A stretch of 64,000 nt of DNA from Halorussus gelatinilyticus (GTDB taxonomy: Archaea; Halobacteriota; Halobacteria; Halobacteriales; Haladaptataceae). Within the stretch, counting starts at the first letter, position 1, and every line of letters begins with the position of its first letter. Positions 4,997 through 19,189 of the stretch are shown here, piece after piece. Location of the stretch: contig NZ_CP096658.1 of NCBI RefSeq assembly GCF_023238445.1, forward strand, positions 620,001-684,000. The letters run 5' to 3'. The position numbers were made by a program, and so were the translations under genes. The notes under the pieces are model-generated. The model made no database searches. It was given only the letters and a program-made list of their open reading frames with translations, and was not told where the DNA came from.

Positions 4997-5412
4997 GAGC
5001 GATACCTGAGAGCGCCGTAGACGACCGCGAACAGCACGTAGACGACGATGAAGCCGTAGAGGACGGGCCAGACCATGTCGGGGAGCGCGTAGTCGCTGAC
5101 CTGCGGGAGGAGACGGCCCACCGACGCGGTAATCGCCAGTATCGGCGCGAGTATCGTGAGCGTCCACCTGCTCGCTCGCTCTTCGAGCGCCCGGTCGCGC
5201 TCGTCGAACAGCGTCACCGAGGAACCGAACAGGACGGCGAAGAACCCGATGACCGCGACCCAGTAGACGGCTTCGCTGACCAGCGGGTAGCCCAGCACTT
5301 CTCTGAGCAGGAGCGCGACGGCGACGCCTCCGAGGAGGACGCCGTACATCAGGCGACGGTACTTGCGTTGCTTCGAGAGGGGATTCGAGTCGGATGTGGG
5401 GGTCTGTGTCAT
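4993..5412 (-). CDS. DUF2178-like membrane protein paired with HTH regulator
   Basis: The 139-aa protein has four probable membrane helices: about residues 23-40, 46-65, 83-103 and 113-133. The segment FDERDRALEERASRWT between helices two and three is characteristic of DUF2178-type proteins, which in many bacteria and archaea are encoded directly before a small XRE regulator, as here. The role is unknown. Such pairs are often proposed to sense membrane state and hold the regulator. The start at 5412 is supported by GGTTTACACC on the minus strand 19-28 nt upstream and by the double operator just beyond it. Confidence 0.82.
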   Translation of the reverse strand: MTQTPTSDSNPLSKQRKYRRLMYGVLLGGVAVALLLREVLGYPLVSEAVYWVAVIGFFAVLFGSSVTLFDERDRALEERASRWTLTILAPILAITASVGRLLPQVSDYALPDMVWPVLYGFIVVYVLFAVVYGALRYRS

Positions 5413-5449
5413 GGTTTCTGGATGCGCCGCGGTGTAAACCGAGCCTGTC

Positions 5450-5482
5450 GTAAAGTTCTCTTTACAGTAAAGAAGGCTTTAC
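5450..5482 (-). promoter_or_regulatory. Two tandem perfect palindromes, probable operator of the HTH/membrane pair
   Basis: Positions 5450-5465 read GTAAAG TTCT CTTTAC and 5467-5482 read GTAAAG AAGG CTTTAC. Each is a perfect 6+6 inverted repeat with a 4-nt spacer, and the two are separated by one base, giving a 17-bp period. They lie 38-70 nt upstream of ATG 5412, just upstream of its TATA-like sequence. The arms are identical while the spacers differ, which is what a protein-bound site looks like. The only gene reading away from it nearby is the operon 5412-4784. Confidence 0.75.
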
Positions 5483-5568
5483 ACAACCACTTAAACCTGA
5501 CGTTGACCGGAAACATCGACTTCAGTGGCTTCTATCGCCCGAAAATGAGAGAATGGAGGTCGAGACGG

Positions 5569-7326
5569 CTACTCGGTCAGTTCGGCCACGCGCTCGCTCA
5601 GTTCCTCGGGCGTCGTCACCGGGTCCGAACGCTCGCCGTCCACGACGACCACGGCGCTCCCCGCACCGAACTCCTCGCGTACCGCGTCGGCGTCCGGAAC
5701 CACGACCTTCTCGTGGTCGGCGATTCGCATCGCGGCGCGGTGGAGGTCCGACCCGGCCTCGTCGGCGACTTCCACGACGAGGGGGTCCCGGCAGAGTCGC
5801 GCCGCGGCGGTGGCGTAGGACGCGACCTGCACGCCCAAGCGGTCGGCGGCGTCGGCGAACGCCGCTATGGCCTCCTCGGCGACCTCTCGGTAGCGGTCCT
5901 CGCCCGTGAGGAGCGCGAGGTCGGCCAGCGCGTCCGCGAGTTCGGCGTTGTGGTCCAGCGGGCGCAGGGGTCGGTCGAGCAGACCCGGTCCCTCGCGGGG
6001 ACCGTCCACGAACGCGCCGGACGGCGACGAATCGCCGTCCTCGCCGTCCTCGCCGCTCTCGCGCAACGCTTCGAGCGCGTAGTCGGCCACCTCGCGCGCC
6101 GCGTCGAGGTACCGCTCGTCGCCCGTGACCTGCCGGGCGGTCGTGAGCGCGCCGAGCAGGTGGGCGTGGTCGGCGAGCAGTCCGGACTCGCTCTCGTCGC
6201 CGGTCTCGCTGGCGTCGAAGTGTGTGACCTCGCCGTCCTCGACCAGTTCGGTCAGGACGTACTCCAGCGCGCGCTCGGCGTAGTTGCGGGCGCGCTCGTC
6301 GTCGGTGTAGGCGTGGTAGGTGAGCAGCGCGTCGGCCGCCATCGCGTTCCAGTCGGCGAAGGCCGTCGGGTCCACCGCAGGCGGGTCGGCCGCCTCGCGG
6401 TCGCTCGGCGCGAGGTCGTAGTAGCCGGGTTCGTCGGTTTCGTCGGATTCCGCGTCCCCGTCGTCGCCGCCCTCGGGCACGTCCGGCGAGTCGCCGGGGG
6501 CCTGACTCCCCGCGAAGGCGTCGGTGGCGCCGTTCCAGAGGGTCGTGGTCAGGTACTCGATGGCGCGCTCGGCCGGGTCGCGGTACTCGTCGTCGCCGGT
6601 GTAGAGGTAGGCGTTGGCGAACGCCCGGACCAGCGCGGCGTTGGTCGAGAGCAGTTTCTCGTGGTGGACCTCTGTCCAGTCGCGGCTCTCCGCGAACCGG
6701 AAGAAGCCGCCGTCGTAGTCGTCGGCGAGGTGGCGCTCGACCGCGGTGAGGGTGGCCAGCGCCTGCTCGCGCTCGCGCTTCAGCGCGAACTCGATCGTGC
6801 GCGGGAGCGGGAACTTCTCGCTGTCGCCCCACCCGCCCCACTGCTCGTCGAACTTCTCGCCCAACTGCCCGGCGACCAACTGCTCGATTTCGGGCGAGAG
6901 TTCGCCCGCGGGCGGGTCCTCGCGGAGGATCCGCGGGATGCGCGCGGCGTCCTCGCCCTTGTGACTCCAGAGGTCTCGCACGCGCTGGACGACCTGCCGC
7001 ATCCCGTCGACGCCGAGGTAGGTCGCGCCCGTCAGGAGGTCGCCGTCCGGCGTGCAGAAGACGGTCGAGGGGAACCCGCCGACGTTGTACCGCTCGCGGA
7101 CCCGCGGCTGGCGGTCGATGTCCACGCGAACCGGCACGAACGAGTCGTTGACGTTCGCGGCGACCATCGGGTTGCTGTACGCCTCGCGGTCCATCTCGTG
7201 ACACCACGAACACCACGTCGCCGACAGCGAGAGCAGGACCGGTTTGTCCTCGTCGCGGGCCTCCTCGAAGGCGGCCGCGCCCCACTCGCGCCACTCGACT
7301 TTGGTCTCCTCGGCGCTTTCGTTCAT
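5569..7326 (-). CDS. Thioredoxin-fold protein of the YyaL/SSP411 (DUF255) family
   Basis: From ATG 7326 the product is 585 aa. Residues 1-150 form the DUF255 thioredoxin-like domain, with the redox motif ATWCSWCHEM near residue 42 and GGFPSTVF near 98. The rest is an alpha/alpha-barrel region resembling N-acylglucosamine 2-epimerase-type proteins, with many YLTTTLW and ADNAEL-like helices. The family occurs in all domains of life (human SPATA20), but its reaction is not established. An acidic insertion near residues 285-320 rich in D, E and G is a halophilic extra. A longer open frame upstream to 7965 is antisense shadow. Confidence 0.85.
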   Translation of the reverse strand: MNESAEETKVEWREWGAAAFEEARDEDKPVLLSLSATWCSWCHEMDREAYSNPMVAANVNDSFVPVRVDIDRQPRVRERYNVGGFPSTVFCTPDGDLLTGATYLGVDGMRQVVQRVRDLWSHKGEDAARIPRILREDPPAGELSPEIEQLVAGQLGEKFDEQWGGWGDSEKFPLPRTIEFALKREREQALATLTAVERHLADDYDGGFFRFAESRDWTEVHHEKLLSTNAALVRAFANAYLYTGDDEYRDPAERAIEYLTTTLWNGATDAFAGSQAPGDSPDVPEGGDDGDAESDETDEPGYYDLAPSDREAADPPAVDPTAFADWNAMAADALLTYHAYTDDERARNYAERALEYVLTELVEDGEVTHFDASETGDESESGLLADHAHLLGALTTARQVTGDERYLDAAREVADYALEALRESGEDGEDGDSSPSGAFVDGPREGPGLLDRPLRPLDHNAELADALADLALLTGEDRYREVAEEAIAAFADAADRLGVQVASYATAAARLCRDPLVVEVADEAGSDLHRAAMRIADHEKVVVPDADAVREEFGAGSAVVVVDGERSDPVTTPEELSERVAELTE

Positions 7327-7482
7327 GCGTCGGCGTTGGGAGCGGGCCGGGATGGGTCTTGCTATGTCGGCGCTTCGGGGTGGGTTTCGTGATCGGTTTG
7401 GACCGTCTCTTACACGACCTCCCCCGCCGAGCGAATCGCCCCGAGCGAGACGCTTACGGTCCCCCGCCACGAAGACCGACGC

Positions 7483-8043
7483 GTGAAACGGGAGCCGCTC
7501 CTGTTCGGGCTGGCGGCCGTCCTCGCGGGCATCGCCACGCTCGAATTCGTGCTGGCGTTCGTCTACACGCCCGCGCTGTTCGCCATCGCGGTGCCGTTCG
7601 GCGTGGCCGCCTACCTCGTCTGGTACCACGCGAGCGGTCGGCTCCACGAGCGCGTCGTAAGCGGTCGCGCCGGGAGCTACCGCCGCGCCGACCCGGAGAC
7701 CGGCGGGTTCGGTGCCGGGCCGCGCGATTCGTTCACGGGTCGCCGTGGCTTCGACGCCGACGGCGGATTCGACGGCCGTGAGGCCCGCGACCGACGCGCT
7801 CGCGGTGCTGCGGGCGGGCGGGGCGGACGGGGCAGACGGCGCGCCCAGACGGTCGGCGACACCGGACCGACGCCCGCGGAGGCCTATCGCGTCCTCGGAC
7901 TCGACGGGGACGCCGACGCCGACGACGTGCGGCAGGCCTACCGCCAGAAGGTCAAGTCGGTCCACCCCGACCGCGAGTCCGGCGACGAAGAGCAGTTCAA
8001 GCGCGTGAAAGAGGCCTACGAAGTCCTGAACGACCGGAACTGA
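7483..8043 (+). CDS. Membrane-anchored J-domain protein
   Basis: The gene starts with GTG at 7483 and encodes 186 aa. Two membrane helices occupy about residues 5-26 and 29-46 (LLFGLAAVLAG and FAIAVPFGVAAYLVW). A Gly/Arg/Asp-rich linker follows, and a C-terminal J-domain starts near residue 125 with AYRVLGL and carries the HPD tripeptide near residue 165 (SVHPDRES). The J-domain would recruit DnaK to the membrane. The C-terminal position of the J-domain and lack of Gly/Phe and zinc-finger regions make it a type III J-protein, not DnaJ. Client unknown. Confidence 0.87.
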   Translation: MKREPLLFGLAAVLAGIATLEFVLAFVYTPALFAIAVPFGVAAYLVWYHASGRLHERVVSGRAGSYRRADPETGGFGAGPRDSFTGRRGFDADGGFDGREARDRRARGAAGGRGGRGRRRAQTVGDTGPTPAEAYRVLGLDGDADADDVRQAYRQKVKSVHPDRESGDEEQFKRVKEAYEVLNDRN

Positions 8044-18130: not shown

Positions 18131-18158
18131 GTTTGCAGCAAACACCAAAGTATAAATA
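18131..18158 (+). promoter_or_regulatory. Palindrome plus BRE/TATA before the terpene-synthase-like gene
   Basis: Positions 18131-18143 read GTTTGC A GCAAAC, a perfect 6+6 inverted repeat around one base. It is followed by ACCAAAG (BRE-like) and then TATAAATA at 18151-18158. Transcription would begin around 18178-18182, at or a few bases before the start codon. A palindrome touching the BRE is well placed for a repressor or activator. Confidence 0.65.
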
Positions 18159-18187
18159 TCATCGCTGGCTGTCTGACAGTGGATACA

Positions 18188-19189
18188 ATGGGTGCGGACG
18201 TGACGGAGATCGTCGAGGCAGTGAAATCAGGTGACAGCACTGCCGACGTGGAGGCAATCGCCGACCACGACCTCCCACCGGAAGTCACGGAACTCGTCGA
18301 GGAGTACGAGCGCTTCGACGGCACCCGCGACCCGTTCCTCTGGAAGTGGTTTCACTGGCTGACGCCCCAGTTCACCTTCTCGTTCGTGCCCGACGAACAC
18401 GTCGCCGACGCGCGGACGGCGAAGATGCTCGCGGGCGTCTTCATCACCATCGTAGACGACTTCCTCGAAAAGGACCACGACCGCGAGACGTTCGACGAGG
18501 CGGTGAAGATTCCCCACGCGGTCTACGAGATGGACGCCGACCGCGAAGGGGTTCAGACGCGCCAACTCGAACTCGTCCGCGACGTGTGGACGACCCTGCT
18601 GGACGTGCTGGAGCGCGCCCCGAGCTCGGAGGAGTACCTCCCGCTGTTGCGGTTCGACACCGAACAGGCGACCAACGCGGTCCACTACTCGTACCTGCTC
18701 GACAGCTACCCCGAACTCGCCAACACCCGAGAGCTGACGGTCCACGAGTCGCACAACATCATGATGTTCGCGTACGCCGACGTGGACCTGATGTTCGGCC
18801 CGACCTTTCCGCGCTCGGACCTCGCCACGCTCCGCCAGATGGTGTGGCAGGCCCAGATGATGGCCCGCATCGGCAACTGGATAGCCACGTGGGAGCGCGA
18901 GCTGCACGAGACCGACTTCAGTTCCGGCCCGGTCGTCCACGCGCTGGAGTCGGGCCTGCTCGATTACGAGGACCTCGACAGACTCCGGACCGACCAGGAG
19001 TTTCGCGAGGCGGTCATCGAGGACCTCAGAGAGGCCGGCGTCGAGGCCGTCTTCTTCGAGCAGTGGCAGAGCCACTACGAGGAACTCGAGCGCCTCGCTG
19101 CGAACCTCTCGACCATCGACGCGACCTCGTACGCCGAGGGGATGGAGACGGTTCTCCAGTACTTCTTGCGAGCGAAGGGCAAAATCTGA
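18188..19189 (+). CDS. Putative class I terpene synthase-like protein
   Basis: The 333-aa protein is almost all alpha-helical and shows the three active-site marks of class I terpene cyclases in order and spacing. These are an Asp-rich motif VDDFLEKD (D90, D91, E94), an Arg in NTRELTVHE (R181) where the pyrophosphate sensor sits, and NWIATWERE (N230, T234, E238), matching the NSE triad Nx3[ST]x3E. Motif spacing of 140 residues is as in bacterial enzymes. The usual Asp after N230 is Trp. It would bind a prenyl diphosphate with Mg2+; the product is unknown. GTG 18179 is an alternative start. A strong TATA box precedes it. Alternatively it is a non-catalytic isoprenoid-synthase fold. Confidence 0.62.
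   Translation: MGADVTEIVEAVKSGDSTADVEAIADHDLPPEVTELVEEYERFDGTRDPFLWKWFHWLTPQFTFSFVPDEHVADARTAKMLAGVFITIVDDFLEKDHDRETFDEAVKIPHAVYEMDADREGVQTRQLELVRDVWTTLLDVLERAPSSEEYLPLLRFDTEQATNAVHYSYLLDSYPELANTRELTVHESHNIMMFAYADVDLMFGPTFPRSDLATLRQMVWQAQMMARIGNWIATWERELHETDFSSGPVVHALESGLLDYEDLDRLRTDQEFREAVIEDLREAGVEAVFFEQWQSHYEELERLAANLSTIDATSYAEGMETVLQYFLRAKGKI

Follow-up and report, generated by a model that had tools for sequence, protein, structure and literature searches.

The gene and its reading frame

The genome of Halorussus gelatinilyticus consists of a single contig of 3.67 Mb. The window, which is the whole stretch of 64,000 nucleotides that was analysed, contained an open reading frame whose product we describe as a putative class I terpene synthase. 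The following features were located in and directly upstream of the gene.

18151..18160, + strand: TATAAATATC, a TATA-box-like element 37 nt 5' of the ATG, identical in six orthologs of the Halorussus group
18170..18178, + strand: TGTCTGACA, an operator-like palindrome between the TATA box and the start codon, identical in six orthologs
18188..19189, + strand: putative class I terpene synthase gene, a stand-alone open reading frame of 333 amino acids
18455..18469, + strand: DDFLE (residues 90–94), aspartate-rich metal-binding motif at the C-terminal end of helix 69–94
18728..18730, + strand: R181, previously claimed as the pyrophosphate sensor; not conserved
18746..18748, + strand: E187, in the slot expected for the sensor Arg, 43 residues before N230 and immediately ahead of the break in the helix at 192
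18875..18901, + strand: NWIATWERE, NSE-type triad N230/T234/E238 near the end of helix 209–240; W231 is a clade marker

The initial annotation, made from the letters alone, had listed the reading frame with its coordinates and its length of 333 amino acids, DDFLE at residues 90–94, R181 and NWIATWERE at residues 230–238. All of these were present as claimed, and the distance from D90 to N230 was indeed 140 residues. The ATG at 18188 was taken as the start codon and the alternative GTG at 18179 was rejected: of six orthologous upstream regions, two had a 1-nt deletion that put the GTG out of frame. The closest named relatives were Halorussus species (68–69% identity), and another genome of the same genus contained a copy with 91% identity. 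Judged by its nucleotide sequence, the gene is under purifying selection. In comparison with the 91%-identical ortholog, dN was 0.050 and dS 0.402 (dN/dS about 0.12), with most substitutions at third codon positions.

The gene would be transcribed alone, as a unit with a promoter of its own and the operator-like palindrome. TGTCTGACA occurred once in the 64-kb window (0.14 copies expected); across the entire genome, two sites combined the TATA box with the palindrome. The palindrome is a possible operator for a regulator.

Metal-binding motifs and their conservation

The protein carried both metal-binding signatures of class I terpene synthases, an aspartate-rich DDxx[DE] motif (DDFLE) and an NSE/DTE triad (in NWIATWERE). 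In the AlphaFold2 model, both motifs were positioned toward the C-terminal ends of their own helices, as expected for class I enzymes. These two motifs have been reviewed as the conserved sequence features of terpene synthases (PMC10563020). A DDxx[DE] followed at 100–180 residues by Nxxx[ST]xxxE also occurred in 0.4% of shuffled versions of the 333-aa protein, and 10 of 826 other open reading frames (about 1%) had it as well. By itself the pair of motifs is weak evidence for a terpene synthase; it exceeds chance because its residues are conserved.

Conservation was determined in three alignments. Set A1 consisted of 21 homologues from a whole-protein search in which the motif was not used. 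Set A2 comprised 68 sequences, nearly all haloarchaeal, and invariance of the second motif in this set proves nothing, as the sequences were gathered with patterns from that region. In set A3, distant methanogen homologues with 18–36% identity were added. D90, D91, N230, T234 and E238 were invariant among the 21 homologues of A1, and D90 and D91 were invariant in all three sets. D90, D91, N230, W235, E238 and D243 were still invariant after the methanogen homologues had joined the alignment, and T234 was invariant or at least 90% conserved depending on the alignment. Residue 94 was Glu in 59 and Asp in nine of the 68 A2 sequences.

The residue after the Asn of the triad distinguished groups within the family. 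Every intact haloarchaeal copy in the alignments had Trp at position 231; Methanosarcina-like copies had another residue there (NT or NA), as did one other methanogen (NC). This is in line with the earlier suggestion that Trp after the Asn may be the mark of a distinct clade. "Methanosarcina-like" is a label that was assigned from the kinship group of these copies, which were placed on a very long branch.

Profile searches and predicted fold

Profile and structure searches were consistent with a class I terpene synthase. The initial annotation had proposed a profile search, and Pfam PF19086 (Terpene_syn_C_2) did match the 333-aa protein (E = 5e-4), with a score of 20.3 bits that falls below the curated cut-off of 23.7 bits. 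Relatives passed this cut-off: the profile matched 15 of 21 family members (best E = 1.7e-7), and family homologues scored up to 35.5 bits. In a scan of the whole class, PF19086 was above the cut-off in 21 of 145 Halobacteria genomes, and the positions of these matches were those of the family alignment wherever the two were compared. Terpene synthase profiles were the only Pfams matched by the protein and by more than one member of A1. Three A3 members matched M3K_C weakly (E = 0.0069), probably by chance. An NCBIfam search of the family yielded nothing relevant. Assignment as an isoprenyl diphosphate synthase or a squalene/phytoene synthase was considered and rejected, as the protein matched no such profile; the genome encodes these enzymes elsewhere. 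A sequence search of the PDB with the protein gave no match. The PDB profile search reached an E value of about 0.6 at best, with two terpene synthases, Sat1646 and terpenoid synthase 18, whose NSE motifs aligned with NWIATWERE.

The structure prediction that had also been proposed recovered the class I all-helical isoprenoid synthase fold (AlphaFold2, pLDDT 94.8, pTM 0.92). Among the Foldseek matches listed, the best PDB matches were all class I isoprenoid synthases, with terpene synthases first: aristolochene, hydropyrene and BcBOT2 synthases led (E about 1e-4, probability 1.0, TM 0.5–0.61), and FPP synthases were also among the matches listed. The structural likeness was distant, with a TM of about 0.55 and 10–14% identity. 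A model of a Methanohalobium homologue had the same fold and matched mostly terpene synthases. In a viral library, only the two best matches reached probability 1.0; one was a terpenoid synthase of an Orpheovirus, the other a pithovirus protein that is uncharacterised.

Candidate diphosphate contacts

An Arg 43–46 residues before the Asn of the NSE motif acts as pyrophosphate sensor; it is usual in class I terpene synthases, although not defining. The proposal that R181 takes this role was rejected for lack of conservation, as Arg was present at this position in only 11 of 68 homologues. From the spacing and the helix break (at 191/193 in the AlphaFold2 model), we infer that residue 187 is the expected sensor slot. 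In the Halorussus protein this residue is Glu; in A2 (68 sequences) it was Asp in 37, Gly in 15 and Glu in 12, and Arg or Lys was found there only in Methanosarcina-like copies.

With the canonical Arg missing, other basic residues must serve in diphosphate binding, and the conserved candidates on which it may lean are R227, R237, R216 and R47. The likeliest contacts are R227, which precedes N230 by three residues, and R237, directly before E238; other terpene synthases commonly have Arg or Lys at these two positions. According to a review, the diphosphate is usually coordinated by three basic residues (PMC10563020).

Gene neighbourhood and probable regulation

In the window, the synthase gene was flanked by genes for a DCC1-like oxidoreductase and a KaiC-like ATPase, and not by a Bat-like gene. 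The order DCC1-like oxidoreductase, synthase, KaiC-like ATPase and PEP carboxylase was kept in the three relatives with a close ortholog that were checked. Genes typical of a terpene cluster (P450, methyltransferase, prenyltransferase) were not found among the window neighbours examined. A SAM methyltransferase gene was present downstream of one Methanosarcina-like synthase copy (L141:5624-6433, − strand), with no close copy beside the other Methanosarcina-like loci. Three methanogen genomes, all from a single genus, had an FAD oxidoreductase gene beside the synthase (L137:9024-10121, + strand, and also L138 and L148); its product showed a weak likeness, with a score under the cut-off (E = 2e-12), to the geranylgeranyl reductase family. 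In five Halobellus genomes, a gene for a 247-aa protein with no Pfam or NCBIfam match adjoined the synthase (L055:9105-9848, − strand, and L047, L059, L085 and L095).

Across the family, genes for sensor-regulators recurred near the synthase. Of 80 loci, 28 had a Bat-like gene (PAS, GAF, BAT and HTH_10 domains) no more than 1 kb away, and in 17 of these 28 it was upstream on the opposite strand. With 9–30 BAT-domain genes per genome, such a neighbour would be expected by chance in about 1% of loci, an estimate that does not convert into a p-value because the loci share ancestry. The arrangement of the Bat-like gene varied by lineage (divergent, co-directional upstream or downstream). HalOD1-domain proteins were encoded near the synthase in 18 loci, members of a PAS/histidine-kinase cluster in eight, and a gene of the metallo-beta-lactamase fold was divergent to the synthase in 12. 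In seven Methanosarcina-like loci (L140–L146), a PAS-PAS-HisKA_2 histidine kinase gene was located directly upstream on the same strand. In one of them, L143, the gap of about 60 bp between the kinase gene (5396-6862, + strand) and the synthase homologue (6923-7915, + strand) suggests an operon.

In Halobacterium, light and low oxygen are the conditions under which Bat activates the bop operon (PMC3184054). Since genes for PAS/GAF sensor-regulators recur as neighbours across the family, the terpene is probably made conditionally, in response to light, oxygen, redox state or stress, and not as a housekeeping product. For the window gene, whose own surroundings lack such a neighbour, regulation by a sensor would be an extension from its relatives.

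Proposed activity and alternatives

Profile, fold and residue invariance agree independently, and we consider the 333-aa protein very probably a class I terpene synthase; the metal motifs were observed in the sequence and the fold in the predicted model, and catalysis is what we infer from them. The enzyme would be soluble. The substrate, a prenyl diphosphate, would come from elsewhere in the cell, and its diphosphate would be bound by three Mg2+ ions held by D90 and D91 (and possibly E94) and by N230, T234 and E238. Departure of the diphosphate would leave an allylic cation, which would be cyclised or quenched within the helical barrel to give a terpene. GGPP, the precursor of archaeal lipids, is our first guess for the substrate; FPP or GFPP are possible. 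Two polyprenyl synthases that are clear PF00348 enzymes were encoded elsewhere in the genome and presumably supply the precursors.

The protein might have kept the fold and metal site and only hydrolyse its substrate to a linear prenyl alcohol, or bind a prenyl diphosphate as the sensor partner of adjacent PAS/GAF regulators. The empty sensor Arg slot and the recurrence of sensor genes as neighbours are consistent with such a role. We consider it improbable, since all metal ligands were kept over very deep divergence, which would be needless for binding alone, and since the neighbour changes between lineages.

An isoprenyl diphosphate synthase or other prenyltransferase, which would couple an allylic diphosphate with IPP or a different acceptor and not ionise and cyclise it, would share the fold and the first Asp motif, and FPP synthases and an N-prenyltransferase were among the fold matches. 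This is very unlikely, because the second motif is of the NSE type (NxxxTxxxE), in contrast to the DDxxD of chain-elongating enzymes, and because PF00348 gave no match, even though two clear PF00348 enzymes are encoded in the genome. The restriction of shared Pfam matches to terpene synthase profiles also speaks against it.

A coincidental motif match in a protein that is not a terpenoid enzyme is hardly credible: the pair does turn up in about 1% of unrelated reading frames, but three independent lines of evidence agree on a terpene synthase and the structure search contradicts coincidence.

Relation to known terpene synthases

The terpene synthase proposed here resembles bacterial and fungal class I terpene synthases of the PF19086 type (hydropyrene, aristolochene and 10-epi-cubebol synthases, Sat1646) in its predicted all-helical class I fold, in a DDxx[DE] motif on a helix end, and in an N-x3-[ST]-x3-E motif with Arg three residues before the Asn and Arg before the last Glu. 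Unlike these enzymes, with which it shares 10–14% identity, it has Asn-Trp in place of their Asn-Asp, haloarchaeal members of the family lack Arg at the sensor slot, and the gene resides in an archaeal host without a biosynthetic cluster among the neighbours examined. With isoprenyl diphosphate synthases (PF00348), it has the class I fold and the first Asp-rich motif in common; it differs from them in the absence of a second DDxxD and of a PF00348 match.

Much is known about the terpene synthases of plants, fungi and bacteria; to our knowledge, archaeal terpene synthases have barely been described. A literature search for the latter found a single preprint citation, that of Samusevich et al. 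(bioRxiv 10.1101/2024.01.29.577750; ref. 48 in PMC12797696), which by its title concerns terpenoid biosynthesis in archaea. Going by the same title, the statement in the initial annotation that haloarchaea are not generally associated with cyclic terpenes was partly out of date. The kind of enzyme is thus already known; as far as our searches show, the features of the clade and its association with sensor genes are undescribed.

If the assignment is correct, archaea, with their isoprenoid membranes, also make specialised terpenes. The altered sensor site would bear on how class I enzymes trigger ionisation, and, with sensor genes accompanying the synthase so repeatedly, a regulatory role can be tested directly. 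In a broader scenario, which is possible but doubtful, an archaeal branch of class I enzymes would have lost the classical pyrophosphate sensor and become wired to sensors of light, oxygen or redox state, and halophiles and methanogens would release condition-dependent terpenes, as signals or protectants, from the lipid precursor pool.

Distribution of the family

The family was detected in 120 of 391 Halobacteria genomes (about a third), representing 39 of 86 genera, and beyond this class in several genomes of methanogens from the same phylum. When plasmids were searched with the DNA sequence, only a short match in a DUF393 gene was retrieved. Six copies of the family were present in named plasmid records, and all six were annotated as "hypothetical protein". 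Four copies (L009, L017, L032 and L023) had in-frame stops or truncations, and the gene is therefore being lost in some lineages. One of the four, from Haladaptatus pallidirubidus, had a stop codon at the position of W231. In Natrialba chahannaoensis, two copies of the synthase gene were arranged in tandem (L069:8001-10275).
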